Shown here: piece after piece, positions 5,375 to 64,000 of the stretch
How the letters are laid out: each line of letters begins with the position of its first letter
Numbering within the stretch: the first letter of the stretch is position 1
Assembly (NCBI GenBank): GCA_961205875.1
Contig: OY540812.1
Span: 34,543,098-34,607,097, forward strand
Reading direction: 5' to 3'
Length of the DNA stretch: 64,000 nucleotides
Origin: Sialis fuliginosa
Taxonomy: Eukaryota; Arthropoda; Insecta; Megaloptera; Sialidae
Program-made: the position numbers and the translations under genes
Notes under the pieces: model-generated
The model's database searches: none
Seen by the model: the letters and a program-made list of their open reading frames with translations, nothing else
Told to the model about the DNA's origin: nothing

Positions 5375-5706
5375 TCTAACACTGTAACTACTGGTTCTAA
5401 AAATCTGAAAAATAATTGGTAACGAGACTTATCACGAGAATTATCAATGACAAATACTAAAGTCAACAATATAATTTTAAATTTTGAAATAATAAAAAAA
5501 ATTGGTGTCCAATGTCCAGCATTAATTAATAGGAAAGGTCCTATATACTTCCACACGACAACGCGCGACCTCACGTAGCACAATAGTCCACGGTATTTAG
5601 ATTAAATTCGCCAAATACATAGAAGAAAAAAATTATCAAGTTTTGATACTTTGTCCACGAACTCTCAGTATAGTCCAGTACATTTAGACGAAAAATAGCT
5701 GTGTCT

Positions 5707-6111
5707 GGGGAAAAATTCGCAATAAGCTGAATTTTTGTATACACCTTCATTTTGTCTTTATAAATAAGATACCAAAAGTCCCCAACAATCCCATGCGAGC
5801 ATACTTTTTTACAGCCCACAAAAGGTGCTAACAATTAGTTTTAAGTAAATATCTCTGTATGTATTGGTTCTATGACTAAAATAGTTATTATCAAATATAA
5901 AGTTTAGAAAATTACCTACAATAAAGATCTTACAACTTTTTTCGCACAAGTAATCGTTTTCGCTTATTAAGAGGGTATTCTAATTGTTAGCACCTTTTGT
6001 GGGCTGTAAAAAAGTATGCTCGCATGGGATTGTTGGGGACTTTTGGTATCTTATTTATAAAGACAAAATGAAGGTGTATACAAAAATTCAGCTTATTGCG
6101 AATTTTTCCCC
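5707..6111. repeat. Hairpin with 131-bp arms
   Basis: The arm at 5707-5838 is reverse-complemented at 5981-6111 almost without mismatch (for example 'agcaccttttgtgggctgta' against its complement), around a spacer of about 140 bp. It lies directly beside the foldback at 6142-7225. The two may be parts of one rearranged element, because words from the outer flank near 5640 ('gtccacgaactct') recur inverted near 7236. Confidence 0.75.
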
Positions 6112-6141
6112 AGAGAAAACCTAATGTTCCTGGACTAGTAA

Positions 6142-11702: not shown

Positions 11703-13257
11703 CAGGGTAGTTCAATAGTGCGTCCGGCTTTCCTAGCGCACTTCTCATAGGAGATAGAAAAAAAAGTTTGGTACATAATATTATTGGTTTGAAAAGATCA
11801 ACGTCGTAAAATTATTTTCAACAATACAGGGTGTCCCATTTTTGCGCTATAACAAAAACAAAGATTTTTTTAAATGGAATACCCTGTAACGTTTTATGTC
11901 TTCCGATGTCGTTTCTTAACCTCTACATTAACGTCTGTTTATTTTTTAATTTAGTGACAGTGTTGCCAAATTAGAAATTTTTTTCCGAAAAATAATCCAT
12001 ATTCAGGCTCAACTATAAAAAATCGTAGCGACCTAATTTCTTTTGAAGTGGTGAATTTTTTTAGCAACAATGTTAGCCCAGTTAAAGAGTAACATTTTGA
12101 TAATAAACAATTTTAATTTAGTTCTACAGGGTGTTAATAAAAAAATGTCAAAGTTTGCAATCTTCAAAATGATAAAACTCATTTTTTTCAAATGTGACTA
12201 CCCTTTTTTTATTTCACTATTCGATGGGCTTTTTTCTCCTTTTCAATTTATATACGGGATATCTTATGTCTAAACCCCATACTTTCGGAGATATTCAATA
12301 ATTTTCACAAAAGTAACCATTTCACCACGTTTTTATGCACCAAAGTAGGCTGTGCTGATGCAAAAGAAATGCCAAAATGTAAGTACTTAAGTATCAATGT
12401 AATATTTAATTAAAATATATAATTAAAACGGATAATACTTATGTAATAAAATTATTTATTTTATTCAAAAAACTATGATAAGTAACAAAATTGAAAATAC
12501 ATATAAAAGATAAGTCTACAATAAATGTTCGAAATGTCTTCCATTTTCATCCAGGCACAAATCAATTCAGCGGCATTTGTTTTATAATTGTTTCGCATTT
12601 ATTTTGTATTTTTTTGGCCTACTTCGGTGCATAAAAACATGGTGAAATGGTTACTTTTGTGAAAATTATTGAATATCTCCGAAAGTATGGGGTTTAGACA
12701 TAAGATATCCCCTATACAAATTGAAAAGGAGAAAAAAAAACATCGGATAGTGAAATAAAAAAAGGGTAGTCACATTTGAAAAAAATGAGTTTTATCATTT
12801 TAAAGATTGCAAACTTTTTTTATTAACACCCTGTAGAACTAAATTAAAATTGTTTATTATCAAAATGTTACTCTTTATCTGGGCTAACATTGTTGCTAAA
12901 AAAATTCACCACTTCAAAAAAAATTAGGTCGCTACGATTTTTTATAGTTGAGCCTGAATATGGATTATTTTTCGGAAAAAAATTTCTAATTTGGCAACAC
13001 TGTCACTAAATTAAAAAATGAACAGACGTTAATGTAGAGGTTAAGAAACGACATCGGAAGACATAAAACGTTACAGGGTATTCCATTTAAAAAAATCTTT
13101 GTTTTTGTTATAGCGCAAAAATGGGACACCCTGTATTGTTGAAAATAATTTTACGACGTTGATCTTTTCAAACCAATAATATTATGTACCAAACTTTTTT
13201 TTCTATCTCCTATGGGAAGTGCGCTAGGAAAGCCGGACGCACTAATGAACTACCCTG
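11703..13257. mobile_element. Mariner-derived foldback family, copy 1
   Basis: Ends are 'cagggtagttcaatagtgcg' and its complement, flanked by TA on both sides. Arms of about 650 bp pair 11703-12350 with 12640-13257. A second 'acagggtgtcccatttttgc' end sits inside each arm (11825 and 13134), so the arm may be one element nested in another. The loop holds the last codons of a transposase (12516-12640). Copies 2 and 3 are at 32694-34222 and 43894-44572. The open frames inside the arms (for example 12070-12273) are arm shadows repeated in every copy. Confidence 0.85.
12516..12640 (-). pseudogene. Transposase C-terminus in foldback loop, copy 1
   Basis: On the minus strand the loop reads IDLCLDENGRHFEHLL then TAG at 12518-12516. 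An FEHL ending shortly before the stop is characteristic of mariner-type transposases. An in-frame TGA just upstream (after CR) and loss of everything N-terminal make it a relic. The same codons are present in copy 2 (33300-33404) and, without the stop, in copy 3 (44420-44528). So all copies descend from an element whose transposase was deleted between its long inverted repeats. Confidence 0.7.
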
Positions 13258-26020: not shown

Positions 26021-26433
26021 AATCGATAGTATTGTAGCACTTATAGTCCAGTAAAGGAAGCATTTTGACAGGAAATTAAGAGGGCAAGCAATTTTATGAT
26101 TGATTCTTATAGATTTTGAACCGGAGAATTCGAAAAAAATAACCCGGACAAGCGAAAAGTGTTGCAACACCCTTAAAAATGGGGTTTAAGGGTGAAAACC
26201 CCATTTCCAACCGTTTTTTCAATTTATCACAAAATCTAAAGCAACGATGGTATATTTTTATCGTTGATATATGTTCAGGACACTCAGACGAATCGATTGT
26301 GACCTCATATACTAAATTTGACCAAAAATTATCTCTTCCAGAGGGTTTAAAAGACTTAAAAATGCATCTTTTCAGGGAAAATAGTTTAAAAATTAATAAC
26401 TTTTGCTAAAATCATCCAAATGACACGTAACTA

Positions 26434-27752
26434 CCCGGGAAAAAATTTCAGATCTAAAGTGATCAAATCAGATCTGCATTTTTACAGATCTGTTTTGATC
26501 TCCATTTTGGAACATATCAACGCAGATCAACACAGATCTGTGTTGATCTGTGTTGATCTGCGTAGATCAACACAGATCAAAACAGATCTGCGTAGATCGG
26601 GGATTTGATTTTTGTACACACACACACCACACAGCTTGACTTCCCGCAGTAACTGGGTTCGAAGAGCAATCCTGGAGAAGAGAACCACCATATATGTATT
26701 GTATTACCTTATTACTAACTGATCCGACTTGGCTTATATACGAATGAAAGTGAAAATACTGTGTTGGCGAGAGCTATGTTGCGATATTTATATATTATAC
26801 ATACATTATAATATGTACCTACTTATTCATAAATAAACTTTTGTCTACCTTAAATAACAAATACACATATACTGAAACCTTGTTTATAATTTAATCAATT
26901 AAAAAAAAATTGTACAGAAACGTACTGAATGATATTTGAGGCCCGTGTATTAAATTAATAAATAAATTCACAACCCACCCCCTGTCACAGATGAAGGGTT
27001 GTAATTGGTCTCATTCGATCCAGCGGGAAAAATACTTCGGGATACCAGGGGTATGGGGGGCAAAACAACCCTCTATCTAGCACAGGAGTCGAGATATTTA
27101 CGATTTTCTATAATGAATACCATAAGTAGCGAAACAGAGAAAAATTCAATATTTACTGTTAATACAGCATAGAAACATAAGATATTATTATTAAATTTAA
27201 TAAAATGAAAAAAAAGTCCAGACACGTATTAAGTGATATTTAAGGCCCGTATTGTTAAAATAACAAATACACATATTTTTTTAAATTGATTAAAATACAA
27301 ACAATACGTTTCAATCTCACGATCTACGACGATCTGCAATGATGTACAACGATCTACAAAGATCAACAACGATCTGTAAAGATTTACAACGATCTGCAAA
27401 GATCTACAACGATCTATAAAGATCACGATCTGCAAAGATCTGCAACGATTTACAAAGATCAATAGCGATCTACAAAGATCTGCAACGACCTACAACTATC
27501 TGCAAAGATCAACAACGATCTATTAAGATCACGATCTGCAAATATCTATAACGATCTGCAAATATCTACAACTATCTGCAAAGACCTACAACGATCTACA
27601 ACGATCTGCAAAGATCACGATCTACAAAGATCTACAGAGACCTACAACTATCTGCAAAGACCTACAACGATCTACAAAGATCTAAAAAGATCTGATTTGT
27701 TCCAAAATGAAGATCAACCGAGATCACTTCAGATCTGAAATTTTTTCCCGGG
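26434..27752. mobile_element. GATCT-rich TIR element with TA duplication
   Basis: Ends 'cccgggaaaaaatttcagat' and its complement (27733-27752), flanked by TA at 26432-26433 and 27753-27754. The empty site (GTAACTAAGC) is preserved on the minus strand near 28510-28525. Left interior (26500-26600) has 'gatctgtgttgatctgcgta' repeats; the middle (26620-27310) holds scraps of the Helitron-like segment ('cattcgatccagcggg') and 'cgtattaa' repeats; the right interior is the array at 27322-27700. No transposase. Confidence 0.85.
27322..27700. repeat. GATCT array with 10-bp period
   Basis: About 380 bases made almost entirely of 'gatctgcaaagatctacaac' variants. GATC recurs every 10 bases with occasional 9-12 base steps. 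The minus-strand frame at 27229-27462 (RCRSLQIV repeats) is simply the translation of this array and is not a gene. Confidence 0.85.
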
Positions 27753-29429
27753 TAAGCTCAAATTGTTACTGAAGTTCCAAAGAAGAATAATGAACCATAA
27801 TTTAAAAAAATATTAATAGTTTAACCAATAAAAATCGCTAATGTTTAACGGTTAGTAACGTAAATTTTTGAAAAACTATCTTTTTACTAAAATTTAAATA
27901 AAAACATCAGGGTTGAATATTTTTTAGTGAAACCAAGGTAGATACCTTCTATTTGTACATACAAACAAAATGAGACCCCTAAAATAATATTCAATTATTA
28001 GAACGGGTGCAAGCGCGCTTAGAAATACACTGAATTTTTGTTGTATACAATTAAAAAAAAATTACATTTTTCCAAACAAAATAATAGATTCAGTCCAGTC
28101 AAGGAAGCATTTTGGCAGGAAATTAAGAGGGCAAGCAATTTTATGATTGATTCTTATAGATTTTGAACCGGAGAATTCGAAAAAAATAACCCGGACTAGC
28201 GAAAAGTGGTGCAACACCCTTAAAAATGGGGTTTAAGGGTGAAAACCCCATTTCCAACCGTTTTTTTCAATTTATCACAAAATCTGAAGCGATGATGGTA
28301 TATTTTTATGATTGATATATGTTCAGGACACTTAAACGAATCGATTGTGACCACATATACTAAATTTGGCCAAAAATTACCTCTTCCAAAGGGTTTAAAA
28401 GACGTAAAAATGCACTAACCCTTAAACATTAGCGATTTTCATTAATTAAACTACTAATCTTTTTTTAAATTATGATTGGCCTTTATTCTTTGGAACTTCA
28501 GGAATAATTTGAGCTTAGTTACGAGTCATTTGGATGATTTTAACAAAAGTTATTAATTTTTAAACTATTTTTCCCGAAAAGATGCATTTTTACGTCTTTT
28601 AAGCCCTTTGAAAGACGTAATGTTTGGCCAAATTTAGTATATGTGGTCACAATCGATTCGTCTAAGTGTCCTGAACATATATCAATCATAAAAATATACC
28701 ATTGTTGCTTTAGATTTTGTGATAATTTGTAAAAATGGTTGGAAATGGGCTTTTCACCTTTAAACCCCATTTTAAGGGTGTTGCATCACTTTTCGCTAGT
28801 CCGGGTTATTTTTTTCGAATTCTTCGGTTCAAAATCTATAAGAATCAATTCGTTTCACTAAAAAATATTTAACCCTGGTGTTTTTATTTAAATTTTAGTA
28901 AAAATGTAGTTTTTCAAAAAATTACGTTACTTACCCTTGAACATTGGCGATTTTTATTGGTTAAACTATTAATATTTTTTTAAATTATGGTTCATTATTA
29001 TTATTTGGAACTTCAGGAACAATTTAACGCTAATTACGAGTCATTTGGATGATTTTAGCAAAAGTTATTAATTTTTAAACTATTTTCCCGAAAAGATACA
29101 TTTTTCTGTAATTTAAGCCCCCTGAAAGAGGTAATTTTTAGTCAAATTTAGTATATGAGGTCACAATCGATTCGTCTGAGTGTCCTGAACATATATCAAC
29201 GATAAAAATATACCATCGTTGCTTTAGATTTTGTGATAAATTGAAAAAACGGTTGGAAATGGGGTTTTCACCCTTAAACCCCATTTTTAAGGGTGTTGCA
29301 CCACTTTTCGCTTGTCCGGGTTATTTTTTTCGAATTCTCCGGTTCAAAATCTATAAGAATCAATCATAAAATTGCTTGCCCTCTAAATTTCCCTTTTTCT
29401 CACTTTTCACTGCTTCCTTGACTGGGCTA

Positions 29430-32693: not shown

Positions 32694-34222
32694 CAGGGTA
32701 GTTCAATGCGTCCGGCTTTCCTAGCGCACTTCCCGTAGAAGATAGAAAAAAAAGTTTGGTACATAATATTATTGGTTTGAAAAGATCAACGTCATAAAAT
32801 TATTTTCAACAATACAAAGATTTTTTTAAATGGAATACCCTGTAACGTTTTATGTCTTCAGATGTCGTTTCTTAACCTCTACATTAACGTCTGTTCATTT
32901 TTTAATTTAGTGACAGTGTTGCCAAATTAGAATTTTTTTTCCGAAAAATAATCCATATTCAGGCTCAACTATAAAAAATTGTAGCGACCTAATTTTTTTT
33001 GAAGTGATGAATTTTTTTAGCAACAATGTTAGCCCAGATAAAGAGTAACATTTTGATAATAAACAATTTTAATTTAGTTCTACAGGGTGTTAATAAAAAA
33101 ATGTCAAAGTTTGCAGTCTTCAAAATGATAAAACTCATTTTTTTCAAATGTGGCTACCCTTTTTTTATTTCACTATTCGATGGTTTTTTTTCTCCTTTTC
33201 AATTTGTATAGGGGATATCTTATGTCTAAACCCCATACTTTCTGAGATATTCAATAATTTTCACAAAAGTAACCATTTCACCACGTTTTTATGCAGCGAA
33301 GTAGGCCAAATAAATGCAATATAAATGCGAAACAATTACAAAACAAATGCCGGTGAATTGATTTGTACCTGGATGAAAATGGGAGACATTTCGAACATTT
33401 ATAGTAGACTGTTATCTTTTATATGTATTTTCAATTTTGTTACTTATCATAGTTTTTTGAATAAAATAAATAATTTTATTACATAAGTATTATCCATTTT
33501 AATTATAATTTTTAATTAAATGTTACATTGATACTTAAGTACTTACATTTTGGCATTTCTTTTGCATCAGCACAGCCTACTTCGGTGCATAAAAACGTGG
33601 TGAAATGGTTACTTTTGTGAAAATTATTGAATATCTCAGAAAGTATGGGGTTTAGACATAAGATATCCCCTATACAAATTGAAAAGGAGAAAAAAACCCA
33701 TCGAATAGTGAAATAAAAAAAGGGTAGCCACATTTGAAAAAAATGAGTTTTATCATTTTGAAGACTGCAAACTTTGACATTTTTTTATTAACACCCTGTA
33801 GAACTAAATTAAAATTGTTTATTATCAAAATGTTACTCTTTATCTGGGCTAACATTGTTGCTAAAAAAATTCATCACTTCAAAAAAAATTAGGTCGCTAC
33901 GATTTTTTATAGTTGAGCCTGAATATGGATTATTTTTCGGAAAAAAAATTCTAATTTGGCAACACTGTCACTAAATTAAAAAATGAACAGACGTTAATGT
34001 AGAGATTAAGAAACGACATCTGAAGACATAAAACGTTACAGGGTATTCCATTTAAAAAAATCTTTGTTTTTGTTATAGCGCAAAAATGGGACAACCTGTA
34101 TTGTTGAAAATAATTTTACGACGTTGATCTTTTCAAACCAATAATATTATGTACCAAACTTTTTTTTCTATCTTCTACGGGAAGTGCGCTAGGAAAGCCG
34201 GACGCACTATTGAACTACCCTG
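32694..34222. mobile_element. Mariner-derived foldback family, copy 2
   Basis: Ends 'cagggtagttcaatgcgtcc' and its complement, TA on both sides (32692-32693, 34223-34224). Arms of about 620 bp. Relative to copy 1 the left arm lacks the inner 'gggtgtcccatttttgc' segment, while the right arm keeps it. The loop holds the transposase C-terminus. The two identical 61-residue frames at 33026 (+) and 33670 (-) are the two arms read in opposite directions. Confidence 0.85.
33300..33404 (+). pseudogene. Transposase C-terminus in foldback loop, copy 2
   Basis: Reads NAKQLQNKCR, a TGA stop, then IDLYLDENGRHFEHL and TAG. Same C-terminal mariner-type end as in copies 1 and 3; the TGA shows decay. No other transposase part survives between the arms. 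Confidence 0.7.
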
Positions 34223-39565: not shown

Positions 39566-40900
39566 ATGCCTAAAGTAAGAATATTGACTTCTCATGAGTG
39601 GATGGCAGTATTTAGGGGTTGTATAAATGGAGAAACATTACAGTCCGATAGTCAATGATTATAATATTTCAAAGGCAGAAGTAAAAAAATAGTCGGAAAA
39701 CTCCAACAGCATTTGATACGATCCGGGCATAAGAGGAAAACTACACCCCGACAAGATCGTCAAATTATTTTTTTTAAACCTCGTGTTACGGTTTTGGTTC
39801 TCTCTCAAAACCTGGACCACTTCCCACCTCCACTGAGCTAGAGGCACCCCAGGCGGAAAGTCAGCCGGGGACGTGACAAGGAAAACTACAGCCCGACAAG
39901 ATCGTCAAATTAATTTTTTTTAAACCTCGTGTTCCAGCAAAACAACTAAAGGAAACACTAAATCTACCGATCCAGTTTAGAAAAATAAGACAGCGCATCC
40001 ATGAACAAGGGGTGACATGTAGAGTTACTAGGAAACGCACATTCATTTCTAAAATAAATGCACAAAATCGACTTGCATTTGCAAAAAGTCACATTAATAA
40101 AACTGATGAATTTTGGAAAAATATTATCTGGAGTGACGAATCAAAGTATGAAGTAAAATCGAATGAAAGACGCGGAAAAAAGAAGAATTTAAAAAATAAT
40201 AATAATCAAACTAACGGTAAAACATGAAGGTGCTATGTCGGTTATGGTTTGGTGTTGTTTCTCTGCTGCAGGTGTAGGAAACCTTTATATTATAGTACAA
40301 ACCTCTGATATATGCACCTCGTTCAGCGAACCTAATCCGTCAACGAATTTCACAAACTCCAAAGAGCCATTTAAAATTGATACAGGGGCAGATGTGTCCG
40401 TAATTGACAAAATATTAGCAAATAAATTATTACTGCAAGTTAATCAAACTAAAAAAAATTGTTTGGTGCAACAAAACAACGAATTAAGTTACTCGGTTTG
40501 ACGAATGTGGAAATAATTCACAATAAAAACAATGTTTTGAACAAATATTTGTTGTGGAAAAAGAACAAACTCCTTTATTAGGACGTCCAGGTATCCAAAA
40601 ATTAAAAATTATTAATTTTATCAACGAAATTTTTCAAAAAAATAAAGTATTAGAAGAAGCATATGGCCAAAGTAACAAGATAATTTTTACAGCAAGAAGG
40701 AATTTATGAATTGGATTGGCCTTCACAAAGCCTAGATTTGAATCACGTAGAACATTTATGGGGTCATTTAGATTTTAGATAGAGAGATACCGCAAAACAG
40801 GAGAACAAACAGGGATGACTTTATTAACGAATTGCAAGAAACATGGAGGTAAATGAACTAAAAAACGTTTATAAACTTCATAACGTTTACATGAAGTAAT
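39566..40900 (+). pseudogene. Tc1-type transposase, broken and interrupted
   Basis: Starts at ATG 39566 (MPKVRILTSHEWMAVFRGCI), the helix-turn-helix N-terminus; a one-base insertion shifts it near 39645. A 62-bp segment is duplicated (39732-39795 and 39879-39945) around an unrelated 84-bp GC-rich piece. The frame resumes with LPIQFRKIRQRIHEQGVTCR, then FWKNIIWSDESKYEV, which carries the first catalytic aspartate, and VMVWCCFSAAGVGNL (usual GGGSVMVWGCFS). At about 40290 it is cut by a gypsy-derived segment. The C-terminal LDWPSQSLDLNHVEHLWG (40715-40765), with the second aspartate, follows. Normal length is near 340 residues. Stops, shifts and the insertion make it dead. The first 50 codons recur inverted at 41491-41640. 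Confidence 0.85.
40300..40640 (+). pseudogene. Retrotransposon (Ty3/gypsy) aspartic protease fragment
   Basis: Reads FKIDTGADVSVIDKILANKL, with the DTGA active-site loop of retroviral-type aspartic proteases. After a frameshift comes LLGRPGIQKLKII, the block that closes the protease before reverse transcriptase. The DTGA position and the LGRPG box are known from Ty3/gypsy pol proteins. It is inserted in, or replaces, the centre of the Tc1 transposase on the same strand. No LTR or reverse transcriptase motif is adjacent. It is a decayed fragment. Confidence 0.8.
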
Positions 40901-46739: not shown

Positions 46740-48060
46740 TCAATCTCAATTGCTGTATACTGTATACTAAATTTGATTTCTTAAAAATGTCTGCTTTTGG
46801 TTTAAGTTTTGTGTAATTACTTATATTTTTGTTAAATGTTTTAAATACAGTTTTTACATTGTATTTATTAAGAGTGTTTTTGATTAAATTAGATGATTTA
46901 TTTATGTAAGGAATTGTAATGTATTGTGTTGAAGTATTTGGTTTGTTATTACTATTAACTGTGTTGTATAATAAGTGAACTCTTTTTACTATACTTCGTT
47001 TAGTTAAATTAATTAGATAGTTATTGTTAAAAAATGCTGTTTTTATTTTGTTTAAATTTTCTCTCTAAACTGTGGATGTGATAATTTGAGTGCTCTGTCT
47101 ATGGTATTGTTTAATATATTAATTTTTATATGTTGTGGATGATCTTTTTGGTACCAGTTTGTAAGTATTTGTCCATTGTCATTAGTAAGTTGTAATCTAA
47201 AAATGCAATTTTATTTTGTTGTATTTCTAATGTGTGTTTACTATTATATTTGTTAAAAGTGTTTTGAATTTCGTCAATGTTATTAGGAAGTGCCTCTGTA
47301 ATTATGTCGTCTACATATCTATAATAAAATGCTGGTTTGGTGTTAATTGATCTAAACAACTATTTTCAATATCTTCCATGACTAAATTAGCTGTAACACT
47401 GGAAATTGATAATATAAATATAAATTCCTCTTTTGTAAGTTTAGTGTAATGTGAAATGTCCTGCCATTTATTATTGACAATATCTAGGGCCAAATCTATT
47501 GGTATGTTGGTATACAACGAAGTAATGTCCAAAGAGAATAACTTATGTATGTTCTTCAGGTATTTGTATGTTTTTAATTTTGTTGACAAAATCAAATGAA
47601 TTTTTAATACCATATTCAGTTTCACCCACCACATTAGACAAAATATTCATCATTTTAAATAAGTACTAGAATCATTAATTAATGTGTATGATTTGTTGAG
47701 GTAATCTGTTTTATTTTGTATAACCGTAACATTACCTTTGTCTGTTTTTGTTACTATAATGTTAGTGTTGTTTCTTAAAAAAGTTTTTGTTTCGGTGTTT
47801 ATTTTATTAAAAAATGCGTCTATGTATTATTATTAATAATTTGAATATTTTTGGAAATCTCTTTTCTAATGTTATCCATTTCTGTTTTATCTTTTTCAAA
47901 TGATAATAGTTCTGTATTTTTTATTGTTTCATTAACTAAATTATTATTAATATTTTTATTACAAAAATTGAAATTGGGTCCAAGACTTAACAGAAATATT
48001 GTGTGGTAATGTGACATTTGTTAAATTTTTGATCCAATTATTGTTGTATTTGATATTTGT
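46740..48060 (-). pseudogene. Penelope-like retroelement (reverse transcriptase)
   Basis: Read from high to low coordinates, the broken frames show the order of a Penelope-like protein. LLSLGPNFNF (near 47970) is the N-terminal conserved block. SLDITSLYTNIP (47505-47540) is reverse-transcriptase motif A with the catalytic aspartate. YRYVDDII (near 47320) is motif C. IAFLDYNL (near 47200) is the thumb region. IPYINKSSNLIKNTLNKYNV and KSNLVYSIQQL (about 46760-46920) form the linker and the very start of the GIY-YIG endonuclease. The endonuclease core is missing, and frameshifts occur near 47630 and 47125. Penelope elements use this RT plus GIY-YIG combination for target-primed insertion; this copy is dead. 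Confidence 0.85.
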
Positions 48061-52635: not shown

Positions 52636-52779
52636 TGTGGGGACTACTACCCACACAACCTTTTGTCGCCTGTACATAACTAACTATCATATTAAAATAA
52701 ATTATGATATGTTTCAGAATGTTGATGAAAAAACAATACAATGTATATAGGGAATATTTTTGACATGTCAGATTTTTAC
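52636..52779 (+). repeat. gypsy LTR fragment (5' part)
   Basis: Matches the 3' LTR (55307-55506) from its first base: 'tgtggggactactacccaca', 'ccttttgtcgcctgtacata', then 'tttcagaatgttgatgaaaa' up to 'gtcagatttttac'. It lacks a 7-9 base piece ('agttagct') and the LTR end. The Harbinger end starts immediately after it. Confidence 0.8.
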
Positions 52780-52781
52780 AT

Positions 52782-52820
52782 GCCCGTCTAACTGTACCTA
52801 TAGCACAGTTAGACGGGCAA
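52782..52820. repeat. Perfect 15-bp-arm hairpin from two Harbinger ends
   Basis: 'tgcccgtctaactgt' and its exact complement 'acagttagacgggca' are separated by 9 bases (ACCTATAGC). Each arm equals the terminal sequence of the Harbinger-type element, so two ends meet head to head here. Confidence 0.8.
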
Positions 52821-53227
52821 TAATATTTATTTAGTGTGTGTATTTATAAGTGTATTTTATTTTTTGTTATGTCAAAACGTTTTTTTTAGCTTTTCTTTCA
52901 GTAAATTTAAGAAATTCTTTAGTAATATTTTGTCTCATTTTTTCTCGATATGCTCGCGCCCCCCTTTTAGTTTTATCACGCCCCCATGAAAAATTCAATT
53001 GTTTTCTTATCAAAATAACATTTTATTTTGTTTCCAACGCCAACGTTAAGAGATACCTATGTACAGATACGATTTTCACATGAATACACGTACAAGTTCC
53101 TTTTGACCTTGAAATGACCTCAAAACATGACATTTGAACTTATCAATCTACATATCCTATTGTAGAATTTCCCGTTCTTTCCGAATCCGGGGTCGAAAAC
53201 AGGCATTTCCATTTGAAAAATTATAGT

Positions 53228-53408
53228 TGGCCTTCAAATAACCCCTACGGTCAAGGTCAAGGTCAAATTCAAGGTCATGGTCGTACGTCCCCCTCCTTGC
53301 CCAACAACTTTTGTATAAAACTTTTTTTATTATTTTGCTTACCGGTCGAGTTATTTTCCATTAAAGGTTAAAATGGTCCACTCGGTATATTTATAATAAA
53401 TTTTTTAT
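53228..53408 (+). repeat. 'aacccctacggtcaaggtca' direct repeat, copy 2
   Basis: Second copy of the repeat at 51745-51945, here inside the Harbinger-type element where the transposase catalytic region would be expected. One additional 'caaggt' hexamer relative to copy 1. Confidence 0.7.
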
Positions 53409-53435
53409 TTAATAATATAATTTTTGTTTTACTCA

Positions 53436-53945
53436 CCTTTAAATATTCTTTTTTTAATACTTTGTAAATTGCCTCGCACACTTTGGGAATTATACCTGAT
53501 ATCGTGCAACTAGGAATCCGAAATAAATACATAAGGGAGTGATAACTATCCCCTACAAATGTAAAAAACGATTTAATATAATTATAATAAAAGATTATCT
53601 ATACCATTTACCAGAGGACAGATATCTCAACGTTATTGCTAATCGTTCACCAGGCGTAATAGATAGTCTCATGTTCGTGTCTTTTTTTCTTTATTAGAGG
53701 ACTTAATTTTTCTAATAGAGTATTAAAATCAATAAGCGATATACGCAAGAAAATTTTACAGGTAATTTTATCGTCACTTATTTCCCTAAATAGTTTGTGA
53801 TAAAAGCCTTCCTGTTCTCTTTTCATTACCCACTGCTTAATCCATATGCTTCTAGTTTTTTTACATTTCTTTTTTTTCACTCTCAGTTAATTGTATAAAA
53901 GTAGCAACTGCTGCTCCTAATTTTCTAAGATCACACATATTTTTA
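53436..53945 (-). pseudogene. HARBI1-like transposase, N-terminal half
   Basis: Two exons on the minus strand. Exon 1 (53945 to 53612) starts MCDLRKLGAAVATFIQLTE, shifts frame in an A-run near 53880, and reads IWIKQWVMKREQEGFYHKLF, then a second shift to MRLSITPGERLAITLRYLSS. After a 58-base GT-AG intron (53611-53554), exon 2 reads GDSYHSLMYLFRIPSCTISG and VCEAIYKVLKKEYLK, followed by a good donor at 53435. The order and the GDSYHSLMY box are characteristic of PIF/Harbinger transposases. The DDE catalytic domain that should follow is gone, replaced by a direct repeat. Two frameshifts plus the truncation make it inactive. Confidence 0.85.
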
Positions 53946-54011
53946 AACACAGTGACATTAATTAATATTAATAGCAACGAAAATATTTTCATCGCTAAGC
54001 AAATAATATTG

Positions 54012-54184
54012 CTCGTCTAACCACCCTTGGAAATTTTTTGAAAATATTGCCAGCAATTATGTATCCAGCAATCTTTTTTTACTAGCGAGCAATGAAATTT
54101 CTTCGCAGTGTAACCACATGCAGCAATTATATTGCCAACAATTAAAAAAATTGCCGGCAATATTATTGCCCGTCTAACTGTACC
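54012..54184. repeat. GCAAT-rich subterminal region of the Harbinger element
   Basis: About ten copies of GCAAT or ATTGC in both orientations within 175 bases (for example 'ttgccggcaatattattgcc'). Clustered short subterminal repeats commonly bind the transposase; the function here is inferred. Confidence 0.5.
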
Positions 54185-54189
54185 TTTAA

Positions 54190-54305
54190 TTTCAGAATGT
54201 TGATGAAAAAACAATACAATGTATATAGGGAATATTTTTGACATGTCAGATTTTACAACCTTATATTTTACAATATTTTAATAAATAAATAATTAGTGCA
54301 AATCA
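54190..54305 (+). repeat. gypsy LTR fragment (3' part)
   Basis: Matches the 3' LTR from 'tttcagaatgttgatgaaaa' to the end 'gcaaatca'. The first 66 bases are also present in the fragment at 52714-52779, so the two LTR pieces overlap rather than meet. It is followed by GTAAA and then the primer-binding-site region. Confidence 0.75.
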
Positions 54306-54310
54306 GTAAA

Positions 54311-54329
54311 TTGGTGACCCCGACGTGAT
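54311..54329 (+). other. Candidate primer binding site
   Basis: 'ttggtgaccccgacgtgat' begins 5 bases after the LTR end. Its position and TGG start fit a tRNA-primed PBS of a gypsy-type retrotransposon. The tRNA was not identified. Confidence 0.55.
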
Positions 54330-54460
54330 CTCAACACGCAACCGTCGTGATCAATCAAGAAATTGTGTGAAATAACATTTTTATTTATCGTGTGCAGTGA
54401 CATTTTTTAATTATTCATATCTATTGTATATTTTTAATAACTGACTTGTGAGTGATAAAT

Positions 54461-54870
54461 ATGTTTGCGGATAACACAACTTCGATTAACCGAATCACTG
54501 TAAAAGTGCCACCATTTATATCAGCTGATCCGGAACTATGGTTTTCAATGTTGGAAAACAGTTTTGACGCCGCGGGGGTAACACAAAACAACACTAAATT
54601 TGGTTACGCCCTGAGAGGATTAGATCAGAAATATGCTCTCGAAGTTCGTGACATAATTATACAACCCAGAACTGAACGATCATATGAACATTTGAAAACA
54701 GAACTAATTAAGCGAATCGGTTCCTCACAAGATCAAAACTCCTGGAAAACGAACCTCTAGGTGATCGAAAACCATCACAATTCCTACATCAACAGGTTCA
54801 ACTATAACCTCCTCAGCAACAGGTTCAACTATAACCTCCACAGCAACAGGTTCAACTATAACCTTCACAG
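54461..54870 (+). pseudogene. Ty3/gypsy Gag fragment
   Basis: From ATG 54461 the frame reads KVPPFISADPELWFSMLENS and TKFGYALRGLDQKYALEVRD, then LKTELIKRIGSSQDQ: the N-terminal Gag of a large insect Ty3/gypsy group (PPF....PELWF..LE..F). A frame change near 54740 leads to NEPLGDRKPSQFLHQ, after which the expected DNA has turned into a 27-bp minisatellite with stops. The rest of gag is lost at a hAT insertion (54885), and protease, reverse transcriptase and integrase are absent. It lies between the LTR end at 54305 and the 3' LTR at 55307, so the element is internally deleted. Confidence 0.85.
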
Positions 54871-54876
54871 AAAAAG
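54790..54876 (+). repeat. 27-bp minisatellite in gag
   Basis: 'caacaggttcaactataacc' recurs three times with period 27 and decays in a fourth. As 27 is a multiple of three it could have expanded without shifting frame, but each unit contains a TAA in the gag frame. Confidence 0.8.
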
Positions 54877-54884
54877 GTTCAATA

Positions 54885-55098
54885 CAGTGGCGTAGGAACG
54901 GGGGGGGTTTTGGGGTCGAAACCCCCCCCGAAATATTTTATGTGCATAAAATATATGAAATTATTATTACAATTTTGAATTGAATGACCTTTTTTTGTGA
55001 TTATAACCCCCCCCCCCCCCCCGAAATATTCAATGTTCTTAAAGTATGTGAAATAATTATAATAACCCCCCCCGAAAATTTTTCTTACTACGCCACTG
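54885..55098. mobile_element. hAT MITE in the gypsy remnant
   Basis: Ends 'cagtggcgtaggaacg' and complement of 'cttactacgccactg'; exact 8-bp duplication GTTCAATA (54877-54884 and 55099-55106). The 214-bp body consists of three C- or G-homopolymer blocks, each next to 'gaaatatt'-like text. A smaller relative with the same ends is at 57230-57306. Confidence 0.9.
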
Positions 55099-55296
55099 GT
55101 TCAATAACAACTTACAACAAAGCAACAGATTAACAGACTCCATACGCCGGTACCTATCTAGTATTTCGTCGAAAACTGTGATGATCAAGATCCACGGCCG
55201 ACAAGACTTTACAATCTGACAATCTACAACGTAAAACCAGAACTAGAATATGCCAAAACAAAATTGGGTAGACATTTTTAAATCTAAAATACTAGC

Positions 55297-55506
55297 AAGG
55301 GGGTACTGTGGGGACTAATACCCACACAACCTTTTGTCGCCTGTACATAACTAACTATCATATTAAAATAAATTATGATAGTTAGCTATGTTTCAGAATG
55401 TTGATGAAAAAACAATACAATGTATATAGGGAATATTTTTGACATGTCAGATTTTACAATCTTATATTTTACAATTTATTAATAAATAAATAATTAGCGC
55501 AACTCA
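55297..55506 (+). repeat. gypsy polypurine tract and 3' LTR
   Basis: 'aagggggtac' (55297-55306) precedes the LTR start TGTGGGGAC at 55307. The LTR ends at 'gcaactca' 55506, about 200 bp, and contains an inverted 'aactatcat...atgatagtt' hairpin. It is the only full-length LTR of this element here. The flanks of 5' and 3' LTRs share no target duplication, in keeping with rearrangement. Confidence 0.75.
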
Positions 55507-56599
55507 CTTAAAATACATAATCTTATCTATAGACAACGCGACTGCTATATCGTTAACCAGCAGTTCTCAATATGGGTCTTGCGACCGTTAAATGATAATT
55601 GCTCTAGAAGAAGGCGAATTCTTGCTGCAAAACACATTAGGAAAAAATTTGCAGACGTCGTTTACTTCAGAACACACGAGGTAATTCTTATAGCAGCTCA
55701 AATACATGATGTCAAAATCAACAGTGAAACTTTTGTGATAAATTGTCTGCAACTATTTCATCGAATCATCTGTATTGTAAAAATCCACAAGAGCTGCATT
55801 CTTATTTTAAATTTGAATTAACTTTAACTCCACGTTGTTAATTTCATGAAGGTTCTCTGCGTAAAGGGGAATTTTCTTCATATTCGAAATATGTCGTAGA
55901 TAGTGATCATTTACTACATTCTGTTGTATGGTCAAATCCTGGAAATGTATGGAAAGTAAGTTTTAAAATATTATGATACCAATTCAGTTGTAATATTTGA
56001 TGGCTATCCGGACTACGCCACTACGAAAGAGAGCGGTTGCTACAGTTTCGTTAAACATTGAAATATAAAAAAATGACCTGTTTTACTTCACGGGCAGATT
56101 TTCTGTGTAATGCCTTTCATAAGTCAAACATAATTAAACACTTAAAGCAATATTTTAACGACTTAAACATAGCCACCCACCAGGCTGAGGCTGATGCAAA
56201 TGTTGCAATCGCAAATTTCGCTATGGAATTTGCTAAGCGTGGAGAAGCAGTAGTAGTCGTAGCTGAGGATTCGGACAACCTTATTTTATTGACATATTAT
56301 TGCTCGCCTGAACAACAAAAAATGTGGTTTCTTTGTCCTAGATCAAAAATAGTGTATACGACATACCAGCGAAAAGGAAACGGTTGACCTTCATGAGCGA
56401 CCTGCTGCTTGTTGTCCATGCGTTTACTGGATGTGATACCACTTCCGCATTGTACAGAAAAGGAAAACTAAAGGTGTTTAAGCTTATGCAGTCTAAACAC
56501 GAGTTGAGAGCACATGTAAAAATTTTCTTGGAAATCAGCGCAACGAAGGAACAAATTGCAGTGAGCGGGACGCAGTTTATGAGCGGATTATATAATATC

Positions 56600-56975
56600 T
56601 CGCAAGATACATCACTGGAGGAAGGAAGGTACCGTGCTTACTTAAATGGAAATGAAGATGAAAATGTTGGAGATTCAACAGAAAAAAAGAAGAGGAATAG
56701 TTCAGACAAAGATTTTGGGCAGATTCTGAGATCAACCAGACACCTAAAACAACCAGCACGATTTGATGAATATATTTTGGAATAAGGGTTTGAACTTAAT
56801 TGGGGAGGAGTTGTAGTGATTGTCATAGATGAGATAGATTCAGGATAATAATAAGAAGAGACATTAGAATATAACAGTTGATAGTTAATGTAAAAAGGAG
56901 TGATTGTAAGATTAAATAAATAAAGTATAAAAGTTATTATTACTGTGTGTTATTATTTACTGTATATGATAACTG
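56600..56975 (+). pseudogene. 3' end of a gypsy element inserted in copy A
   Basis: The frame running out of the nuclease family continues LRSTRHLKQPARFDEYILE and stops at 56785. This basic tail resembles the C-terminus of gypsy integrases (LR.STR....P.R). A purine tract 'ttggggaggag' (56800-56810) and a TGTAGTGATTG LTR-like start at 56812 follow, with AATAAA near 56920. Family A resumes about 56980 (SLCNDKKYNSYNH). Both boundaries are approximate; no target duplication was found. Confidence 0.5.
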
Positions 56976-57171
56976 TGTTATTAGTTTGTGTAACGATAAG
57001 AAATATAACAGTTACAACCATTCAATTACTAATCTGCAATTGCATTCAAAATTTGAGTTAGCCTGCCTTCCACCAACAAAAACTGCTACTAACCAGCATT
57101 CGTTTAGAGTGTTCCATCAAATTCAAGCGTGGCTGGGAAATAACTTGGAGCCAACAGATTGGGGATAGAAA

Positions 57172-57763
57172 CAGTGCCGGATTAAGTCAGCACGAGACCT
57201 GTAGCAAATGTTATAAATGGCCCTTGTCAGTGGCGTGACTAGGAGGGGGGGATGACACTATAGATTTCCACCTCAGGTGTCACCCCCCCCACCTAGTTAC
57301 GCCACTGACAAGGGGTGGAAATCGATAGTGTCGTCCCCCCAAAAAATTAGAAATAGTGTAAACTTTTGAATGAGTTTTGGATCATGCAAATCTAATAATT
57401 TTTCGCGGAGATATAACTATTTGAAAATTTGAATTCTTTTTGCTTTTTTTTAATTATCTCTTAATTTTTTTGAGGAATGCATAATAAAACACCACTTTTA
57501 CAGACAAACTTTTCTTAATTTAATGTGAGCAAATTAAGAAAAATCGATTAAAAACATTCAAAATTAAAAATCGATTTTTCGATAAAATCGAATCGAGATC
57601 GGAACCCTAAAATAAATTACTGTAGATTTTGACACCCCGTATCAACCATTGAACGGTAGGTGGTGAATCCAATAAGAGGTATTTTTTCGCTAAGCCGCGG
57701 GGGCCCCAGAGACGCGGGACCCGTAGCATTTGCTACTCCTGCTACATGGCTAATCCGACACTA
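57172..57763. mobile_element. hAT element inserted in copy A
   Basis: Ends 'cagtgccggattaag' and complement of right 'tagtgtcggattagc'; exact 8-bp duplication GATAGAAA (57164-57171 and 57764-57771). It splits the DWGW region of the nuclease family. Subterminal 'gtagcaaatg' / 'catttgctac' blocks are inverted. It contains the small MITE at 57230-57306. No transposase. Confidence 0.9.
57230..57306. mobile_element. 77-bp nested MITE, relative of 54885-55098
   Basis: 'cagtggcgtgactaggaggg' mirrored by 'acctagttacgccactg'. The flanks CCCTTGT and ACAAGGG are inverted, not direct, so the palindrome runs on beyond the element. Confidence 0.6.
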
Positions 57764-58109
57764 GATAGAAATGTGTTAAAATAACCTGGTACTAATCTCC
57801 GCCGGTCTCAGAACATTTGTTGAAGCTAATAACATATAATTGCTGTACGCAATGCACCACTAAATGCAAATGTAAAAGATCAGGGCTGTCATGTTCTGCT
57901 ATTTGCAGAACCTACCAAGGGATATCATGCGAAAACACCTCATGCGAAGATGACTACAATGACAATATTATTCAGCTCAAATCATAATTTTTAAAATTTC
58001 GGATTGCAATACAACTTCCAGTTTTGTTGGAAAAGGAAAAAAACAATAGTAAGATAATTACTGAGCAACAAAAATTTATCAAGCCTAGCTAGTATTTAAA
58101 AAAAAAAAG

Positions 58110-58500
58110 ATGCAGACCAAATACCATTGCAAAAATGGATCTCAACTTATAGCTGGTATTTACAAAAGTAAAAAAATAGACATATCATTAAATCAATTAA
58201 GATTTGAGCATTACCAACTGGCAACTAACAAATCTACTTTCAAATTGGAAAATCTTCCCCCAACTGAAGGAGCAGCTCACAACACGCCTATAGAGTTTAT
58301 TACCAATTGCAAACTTGGCTTGATTATTTAGACAACGAGCACGATAACAAAAAAGTTAAGCAATGGGGCTGGAACGAACATCTAGGTAGACTCGTGTCAA
58401 AATTTATCCCAGACAATTCAGACTTAATTCCCGAAAAATTATTAAAAAGTATTAGCTGCAACTGTGAAAGGAGTTGTAATAAACAAATTTCCCATATTCT
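58110..58500 (+). pseudogene. FEN/XPG-like repeat family, copy B (C-terminal part)
   Basis: Two overlapping frames give SLNQLRFEHYQLATNKSTF, LENLPPTEGAAHNTPIEF (to 58303), then after a shift WLDYLDNEHDNKK, VKQWGWNEHLGRLV, and IPEKLLKSISCNCERSC (to about 58480). This is the same order as the end of copy A (LPPT block, W.D/L segment, WGW, first cysteines) but the sequence differs clearly, so it is a second family member and not a recent duplicate. The upstream nuclease region is absent. The two C-terminal parts lie about 1 kb apart in the same orientation. Confidence 0.7.
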
Positions 58501-58639
58501 AAAAAAATCATACTTATTCAATGTAAAAAAAGGTATACTTTCACAAAATTTCATGTCAATTGAATTATTTTTACGAGTAAAAAAAATAATAAACAAAAAA
58601 ATCGGTTTTTCGCTATTTTCTCGGAAAATTTGAGGTTAT

Positions 58640-62198: not shown

Positions 62199-62860
62199 TT
62201 ATATTGTTAATTTAGTTTTGTTGATAAATTCGAATAGTTTATTATATAATTTAGTGTTTTGTAATAATTCTTGGATTGAGTCTGGAATTTCCCTGAAGGT
62301 TGCATCTCTTTCACTTTTCCAAATGGGACATTTTAAAATTAAATGCTCAGCATTAGCTATGCTTATATTGTCGCATCTGCATGTGTTCGTAGTGGTGATT
62401 TTTATTTTATGCTGGTATTCTGGTGTGAATGCGTGATTGAATCGAAGTCGAATGACTGCACTTATTAGTCTTCTAGGTTTTTTAATGTTTTGGAACCATG
62501 GTGTTGTAGGAATTGTTGGTTGAAGTTTTCCATAGAAACGCCCTGTTAATTGGAGTGATAGCTGGTAGTGGTATTGCCATTTTTCTTTTATCTTCTTGTG
62601 TGCCTCTGCTTTGAGGTCTGTGATAGGGAGTAATATTGTTGACTTTTCTTCATTCCTTGTAATATCTTGTGCTAATTGATCAGCTGTTTCGTTCCCTCGT
62701 ATTTGGACATGGCTTTTACACCAGACGAATGTGACCTTTGTGTTGTAGAGCTCTTTGTGTAATATTATTAAGTTTAGAATTTCCATATCAGATAATTCGT
62801 TTTTTTACTGGTCCTGCTCAGGTTTTGTAATACACTTTTGCTATCGCTGATGAATATTTT
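62199..62860 (-). pseudogene. LINE ORF2 C-terminus: RNase H and zinc knuckle
   Basis: A leading segment IFISDSKSVLQNLSR (about 62850-62805) carries an RNase H catalytic aspartate. After a frame break, a long 195-residue frame from 62786 reads VTFVWCKSHVQIRGNETAD, the last RNase H block with its histidine and aspartate. It then ends in a cysteine-histidine knuckle, CRCDNISIANAEHLILKCP followed by KSERD. This is the usual end of ORF2 in RNase H-bearing LINEs. The reverse transcriptase that should precede it is deleted. The stop at 62199 is probably the natural one because the 3' UTR follows. Confidence 0.85.
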
Positions 62861-62999: not shown

Positions 63000-63201
63000 C
63001 TGACATTTTAAAAATCATGTTCTTTTAAAGCCTTAATTTCTTTTAGAATTTCATTTTTTCTTAAATGATTTTTATTATTTTTGAAATAATTTCATTAAAT
63101 TCATTTGACAGTAAAATATTTTTAACATTTATATTAATATTTTCGATTGCTTCATTATCTTCTTCAGTTAGTATTTTCGTATTGTGTGTATTAAAAGCCA
63201 T
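63000..63201 (-). pseudogene. LINE ORF1 N-terminus remnant
   Basis: Starts MAFNTHNTKILTEEDNEAIE and continues with an acidic, lysine-rich segment; after frame changes it reads MSEEINELKQKLIKP and TYAEVLETKKVKITKP near 62900-63000. A coiled-coil-like charged N-terminus and a TYAEVL box are common in LINE ORF1 proteins. Frameshifted and truncated; its end runs straight into the RNase H piece, marking the internal deletion. Confidence 0.45.
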
Positions 63202-63254
63202 TATTAATTAATAATACACTATATTTCTATTTTAAGAGATGAGCTTATTTGACA

Positions 63255-63882
63255 ATTACATATTTAGTACACAGCACAATGGAGAGTTGTCTTTAAATAA
63301 ATTTAGAATTTTTGTCATGTCTCTAATATCTTTTTCGATCCTTAATTTTCTTGCATCAACATGTTGATCACTTGTTAGAAATACTACTTTAGAATAATCT
63401 AATAAGGCTGATGTTACGTTCACAAGAGCACTGAGTCAGTCAATCCACATATTTCCGACTGTGCTTCGAGTTATACCTCTATTTATTATACCTTATTTTG
63501 TTTTTATTTGTCTCATCAAGACTTGTTTTATAGTCTGATCAGTAAAAATCCCTGACCAGAATTTGTCCGTTCTTATTATTGTAAAACCCATCATCAACAA
63601 TTTTTTATATTTGTCTTTGTCCATAATATTTTTCAGTTCAAAAATATCTTGTGAATACAGAGTACCATATTGTGCATAATATAGAAAATATCCGCTCGCG
63701 TGAAAAATTGGTAGCATTTTTTGTACAACTGCAAATTGCCACTTCTTTCGACTTCTGTAAACTGTTTTATCAGAGAGGTCATTCTGAAATACAATAACTA
63801 TAATTTTGCTGTAATTTTTCGTAAATTTTTGAAAACTTTTCGTTTTTAAGTTTTCTAATACTTGAGTCTCAGAAGTAATCAA
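63255..63882 (-). pseudogene. FEN/XPG-like repeat family, copy C (N-terminal part)
   Basis: The 129-residue frame (63882-63493) contains WQFAVVQKMLPIFHASGYFL, then YKKLLMMGFTIIRTDKFWSG and TDQTIKQVLMRQIKT. After frame breaks, GITRSTVGNMWID and VVFLTSDQHVDARKLRIEKD (63340-63440) follow, ending FKDNSPLC. From memory these blocks (P.FHA.G, FWSG.WTD.TIEQ.LMR, TS.QHVD.R) form the part of the same large protein family that precedes the nuclease region seen in copy A. It is therefore the missing N-terminal half, from another copy and on the opposite strand. At least one stop (after WID) and frameshifts are present. The link to copies A and B rests on family knowledge, not on overlap within the window. 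Confidence 0.65.
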
Positions 63883-64000
63883 ATAATTTAAAAATAAGAG
63901 TTATTCGTTGGTATATTGAAATTCTGTTGTAAATAATTATTTGAATATAAAATCGCCTAACATAGCATTCAGCAAAATGTGACCTCTTACAGCTTTCTAC

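Follow-up and report, generated by a model that had tools for sequence, protein, structure and literature searches.

A decayed transposon copy in Sialis fuliginosa with a predicted FEN/EXO1-type nuclease domain, most likely of the AcademX lineage

Introduction

The nuclease of AcademX DNA transposons is XPG-like. In the part of PMC10045372 that deals with the Academ superfamily, the AcademX lineage, credited there to Kojima 2020, is set apart by a nuclease and 3–4-bp target duplications and AcademH by a helicase and 9–10-bp duplications, the duplication sizes being seemingly tied to the two enzymes. Curated Academ elements of bivalves have a mean length of 5,565 bp, as given in a passage of PMC10294476. 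Added nucleases are also described, in a section of PMC9587614, for KolobokE, KolobokP and KolobokD, which carry lambda-exonuclease-like, His-Me finger or DEDDh domains. Here we analysed a stretch of 64,000 nucleotides of Sialis fuliginosa DNA (the window; C4:34543098-34607097 in the genome searched, 392 Mb in 20 contigs) and, within it, a decayed protein-coding locus, copy A. A preliminary description had presented copy A as part of a multicopy family with a FEN/XPG-type nuclease core. We conclude that copy A very probably derives from a cut-and-paste DNA transposon, of which it is a dead and truncated copy; the most likely assignment is to the AcademX lineage of the Academ superfamily. The earlier observation was real, its fold appears right by prediction, one of its motifs was misregistered, and the element is most likely of a known kind.

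Results

Copy A is a pseudogene of a single ancestral protein

We compared the window by tblastn with 129 proteins, comprising 128 relatives from protein searches and the protein of an intact element elsewhere in the genome. At E ≤ 1e-4, 708 matching stretches fell at four places. The best match in the window joined P0108 to 55764-56366 (E = 2.7e-41), and P0001 matched 56950-57171 (E = 6e-19); these values, far beyond chance, indicate that the motifs of copy A come from one ancestral protein. The relic, decayed coding DNA on the + strand, spans 55534-57975, with its start at about 55534, and comprises the following features (residue numbers as in P0003):

55534..56821, + strand: pre-nuclease region and FEN/EXO1-like nuclease domain of copy A (tblastn, several frames with stops, best E 2.7e-41)
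55899..55901, + strand: codon of metal-site aspartate 1, in YVVDSDHLLHSVVW (family D83)
55999..56001, + strand: codon of metal-site aspartate 2, in FDG (D123)
56193..56201, + strand: D-A-N replacing the family D-A-D (D197, D199), the second aspartate being lost
56265..56276, + strand: EDSD (D222 and D224 retained)
56435..56437, + strand: codon of the last metal-site aspartate, in GCDTTSA (D279), aligned with the EXO1 GCD motif
56944..57171, + strand: post-nuclease helical region (ACLPPT..QHSFRVFHQIQAWLG..WG), ending at the insertion point (tblastn E 6e-19)
57172..57763, no strand: hAT-like non-autonomous insert that splits copy A and is unrelated to it (inverted ends, 8-bp duplication)
57796..57975, + strand: cysteine-rich (CXC-like) tail (alignment, E 1.2e-4 against the intact element's protein)

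Copy A thus reads from the pre-nuclease region through YVVDSDHLLHSVVW, VVIFDGYPD, QAEADANV, VVVVAEDSDNLILL and VHAFTGCDTTSALYRKGK to the helical region and the cysteine-rich tail. The order FDG, acidic box (56187-56201), EDSD, GCDTTSA block and tail is as first reported, including the tail itself, with one further aspartate upstream. The codons are spread over each of the three forward frames and are separated by stops, which makes copy A a pseudogene. The span originally given, 55680-57975, needs revision for the earlier start and the unrelated insert. This insert is flanked by the 8-bp duplication GATAGAAA at 57164-57171 and 57764-57771, and has relatives at 39 other places in the genome (77–86%; 40 of 1,488 candidates scored). 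When copy A was searched as DNA with the insert included, the insert was the only part to find relatives among the 40 of 1,488 candidates scored, and a DNA-level sister of copy A may exist.

An intact relative in the same genome has precise ends and 3-bp target duplications

Ends, target duplications and copy number were established on an intact relative of copy A. The genome contains at least 85 matches to P0001, and 11 of these loci (L001-L011) each carry a 1,551-codon open frame:

G000:C1:32995456-33001372: example of an intact locus

The first likely methionine is codon 72, giving a protein of about 1,480 amino acids (aa), a length common to many relatives. Its 18-bp end, TAGCCCAGTCATATTAGG, occurs at 22 exact sites, 11 per orientation, with none for a reversed control; by arithmetic on the site list, they delimit 11 elements, each exactly 5,917 bp long, a count that copies with altered ends escape, the pattern being exact. 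All 11 intact copies are flanked by a 3-bp duplication and none by a 4-bp one. Over the 3,881 bp compared, L001 is matched base for base by eight of the other 10 copies, the remaining two differing by one base, and the 5′ 2,036 bp of two copies show one mismatch. Eleven nearly identical elements with open frames are signs of a very recent burst; with such copies elsewhere in the genome, an element of this kind must have been mobile very recently. The shared ends and duplications are what the preliminary description had proposed to look for in the flanks and, with the dispersed copies, they bear out its multicopy, transposon-like family.

A second family with ends TAGTCCAGTAAC has a 3-bp duplication at both loci covered from end to end, ACT at L021 (2,324 bp) and ATA at L029 (2,012 bp). 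Copy A is a copy of neither the intact element nor this second family: it shows no DNA-level match with the loci compared, and its kinship is at the protein level.

Relatives are found under other names in animal genomes

The first attempt at a protein search, with one frame, gave no match among 55 candidates, and a composite query yielded eight relative proteins. A second query, made of the final 1,061 aa of the intact protein and scored over its residues 1-1000, found 263 proteins among the 7,991 candidates scored, those that shared most words, and 120 of them were used. Alignment A2 comprises 127 of the 128; the one excluded, P0017, bears other transposon domains. In their records, these proteins are named uncharacterized, hypothetical or "Tesmin/TSO1-like CXC domain-containing", the last being the exception to the earlier remark that the family is annotated only as uncharacterised. 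Viral contigs searched with P0001 and the L001 protein yielded no relatives. P0101, a record named Austropuccinia psidii (a rust fungus), shares 42% identity with the insect element across 95% of the query and has a match to DUF6589, a Pfam family without an assigned function; it is either a true relative from the fungus or a stray.

The nuclease domain retains a complete metal site in relatives

In the relatives, all seven acidic metal-site residues are present in order. Counting in alignment A2 only sequences with a residue in the given column, aspartate occupies D83 in 124/124, D123 (FDG) in 125/125, D197 and D199 in 119/120 each, D222 and D224 in 119/119 each, and D279 in 118/119. The seven are therefore kept in 99–100% of sequences at a mean column identity of 29%, which, as a sequence pattern, points to catalysis. 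Nine tail cysteines are likewise kept in 107-111 of 108-111 sequences. Copy A retains six of the seven aspartates, D199 having become asparagine. Its AEAD, previously read as the metal pair, is misregistered: at this pair the family has D-A-D and copy A has D-A-N. The conservation expected of the FDG, AEAD and EDSD residues holds for the aspartates but not for the glutamates: E is found in 23/120 relatives at the AEAD site and in 84/120 at EDSD. The HAFTGCDTTSAL block, once called unique, aligns with the GCD motif of EXO1.

The predicted fold is of the FEN type, matches EXO1 residues 2-312 and includes the PIN/FEN core whose absence would have spoken against the first assignment. Conservation and predicted fold together support a FEN/EXO1/XPG-type nuclease core in the family. 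It shares with EXO1, FEN1, XPG/Rad2 and GEN1 the predicted fold as well as the order and, roughly, the spacing of seven acidic residues. It differs in having D-A-D where the human proteins have E-A-E or E-A-D, and in being a domain of predicted activity inside a transposon protein.

A transposase-like domain precedes the nuclease in one open frame

The intact protein consists, in order, of N-terminal zinc-finger-like motifs, a transposase-like domain, the FEN/EXO1-type 5′-nuclease domain and a cysteine-rich CXC-like tail, with transposase-like and nuclease domains in a single open frame. The transposase-like domain has strands and helices in a plausible order, with a long helical stretch ahead of E452, and it contains an invariant D...D...E set among five conserved residues (P0018 numbering: D46 108/109, D49 108/108, D210 115/115, H241 116/116, E452 119/119). 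DUF6589 was matched on this part by 7 of 33 members at E ≤ 0.01 (best 1.7e-8); the two matches viewed in detail fall under Pfam's own cut-off.

The element most closely resembles AcademX

AcademX is the closest described kind. The intact element shares with it the form of a DNA transposon with terminal inverted repeats (TIRs, 18 bp) and multiple dispersed copies, a nuclease, here of predicted FEN/EXO1 type, in the same element as the transposase-like domain, 3-bp duplications within the 3–4 bp of AcademX, and a length near the Academ mean. This likeness is one of description rather than of sequence. AcademH would belong to the same superfamily if the assignment holds, and the DUF6589 similarity recurs in the rust-fungus record; it differs by its helicase in place of a nuclease and its 9–10-bp duplications, as stated in the relevant part of PMC10045372. 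Kolobok elements are, in the section of PMC9587614 cited above, likewise DDD/E transposons that gained a nuclease, but their nucleases are not FEN-like. In literature covered in part, by title or passage, we found no description of this fold or these ends, and nothing relevant on PIN/XPG/flap endonucleases with transposons or on DUF6589 with transposition. With a nuclease-bearing Academ lineage with 3–4-bp duplications already in print (PMC10045372, Academ passage), the suggestion of a novel class of selfish or host-captured enzyme is rejected.

Several observations weigh against this assignment. The AcademX label is drawn from descriptions of the lineage. Structure lists for the long model were filled by the nuclease, leaving the RNase H fold of the transposase part unmatched. 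For the nuclease, Foldseek TM-scores among FEN-type rows are low (query 0.24-0.34, target 0.35-0.54), the profile matched EXO1 only at E 0.022, P0003 as a single sequence had no match in the PDB, and no Pfam nuclease (XPG/PIN) model was matched at E ≤ 0.01 among the 33 members. The domain is also internal, whereas that of FEN1 and EXO1 begins at the N-terminus. Finally, the ends of the intact element were not found around copy A, the window having no site that differs from a 20-base probe at 5 or fewer positions. The best structural alignments to FEN-type nucleases have 13–15% identity, the best sub-threshold Pfam matches in five members were PIN_4 (0.094) and 5_3_exonuc_N (0.25), and a Pfam search of three window pieces gave nothing useful.

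The same kind of transposon might instead belong to another, or an undescribed, superfamily that gained a FEN-like nuclease independently. The descriptive nature of the Academ label leaves room for this, as do the few members matching a Pfam domain, DUF6589, on the transposase part and the uptake of other nucleases by Kolobok and others (PMC9587614, in part). We nevertheless consider it unlikely, given that the passage of PMC10045372 ascribes this combination, a nuclease with duplications of such a size, to AcademX, and that the element length fits Academ. Still less probable is a nuclease fold retained for DNA binding or structure without cutting; in an internal domain, the N-terminal arrangement that FEN-type enzymes have close to the active site is not obvious, but the near-invariance of the seven aspartates in otherwise divergent sequences argues for an active site. 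A host gene family or host-captured nuclease, finally, seems very improbable: gene annotations cover some of the relatives in named genomes, yet the 11 near-identical copies have precise terminal repeats and target duplications, and the window copies are pseudogenes.

Other elements in the window

The preliminary description counted three copies in the window, giving B and C no coordinates. The family is indeed multicopy here, as copy A and the first two features below; two possible non-autonomous elements follow:

57981..58603, + strand: second C-terminal piece of the family, copy C by position (tblastn, E as low as 3.5e-18 in its later part)
63097..63996, − strand: transposase-domain relic of another copy, running off the window (tblastn E 7e-36)
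26044..29429, no strand: possible non-autonomous element of 3,386 bp with TAG[TC]CCAGTMAAGGAAGCA ends, assigned by its ends only
5671..6137, no strand: possible non-autonomous element of 467 bp with TAGTCCAG-type inverted ends and the 3-bp duplication GTA

In the piece at 57981-58603 the GCD region reads DCN, asparagine standing at D279, though the alignment there is weak (E 0.003). The relic at 63097-63996 has lysine (TDQTIKQ) for the glutamate present in 119/119 relatives. The element at 26044-29429, perhaps a non-autonomous relative of the family, has inverted arms of about 170 bp, about 98.8% alike over 163-173 bp, the 3-bp duplication TTA, ends of the TAG[TC]CCAGT type and an extra end copy inside at 28091. 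The element at 5671-6137 is assigned weakly to the same group. Among 34 candidate TIR pairs examined, two had a 3-bp duplication, about one being expected by chance by our own estimate. The TIR-like pairs at 12074-12886 and 33030-33851 were set aside; these 813-822-bp spans have inverted repeats of at least 60 bp that extend past TAGCCCAG, without a 3-bp duplication, and probably represent a different repeat family.

Pieces at 52636-52780, 54190-54305 and 55307-55506 are 93–97% alike, and the open frame 54452-54760 is, we assume, gag-like; this suggests a degraded LTR retrotransposon at 52636-55506, ending where copy A begins. We take the open frames 39877-40227 (+), 47311-47646 (−) and 62199-62804 (−) to resemble Tc1/mariner, Penelope-type reverse transcriptase and non-LTR RNase H fragments, respectively.

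Discussion

With P0010, a record named Euphydryas editha, the intact protein shares 98.96% identity over 1,155 aa; with P0017 (Arctia plantaginis) the values are 99.7% over 301 aa and 99.5% over 209 aa, and with P0013 (Diatraea saccharalis) 90–92%. Between P0010 and P0017 identity is 99.7% over 301 aa and 93.9% over 163 aa. The three genera belong to different insect families. Judged from these sequences, horizontal transfer is the likeliest reading. Contamination is a possible alternative, but the butterfly and moth records lie on long contigs (22.8 and 5.3 Mb).

Tentatively, and at rather less than even confidence, we propose that an AcademX-type element newly invaded this and other genomes by horizontal transfer and that its FEN/EXO1-type domain serves to cleave the strand that is not transferred or to take off flaps. 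In our main reading, too, the D..D..E domain would join the 3′ ends of the element to the target with a stagger of 3 nt. The nuclease domain, dependent on metal, would act at the element ends by cutting or trimming either 5′ flaps or the 5′ strand, which is not transferred, and the cysteine-rich parts may bind DNA. The window copies are incapable of these steps. A direct role of the nuclease would fit the link between duplication size and helicase or nuclease drawn in the passage of PMC10045372. By analogy, a second nuclease acting on the non-transferred strand would recall Tn7. There, TnsA cuts the strand that the transposase does not transfer; it is a separate protein of a different fold, whereas the present nuclease is part of a single chain.

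Many animal proteins labelled "uncharacterized" or "Tesmin/TSO1-like CXC" can now be read as products of transposons that include an EXO1/FEN1-like nuclease, with strong constraint on its entire metal site. If the proposed mechanism is true, the single-chain transposase–nuclease would be a eukaryotic counterpart of the two-nuclease excision of Tn7. A recently mobile element with open frames offers a way to test the part of the nuclease in transposition.
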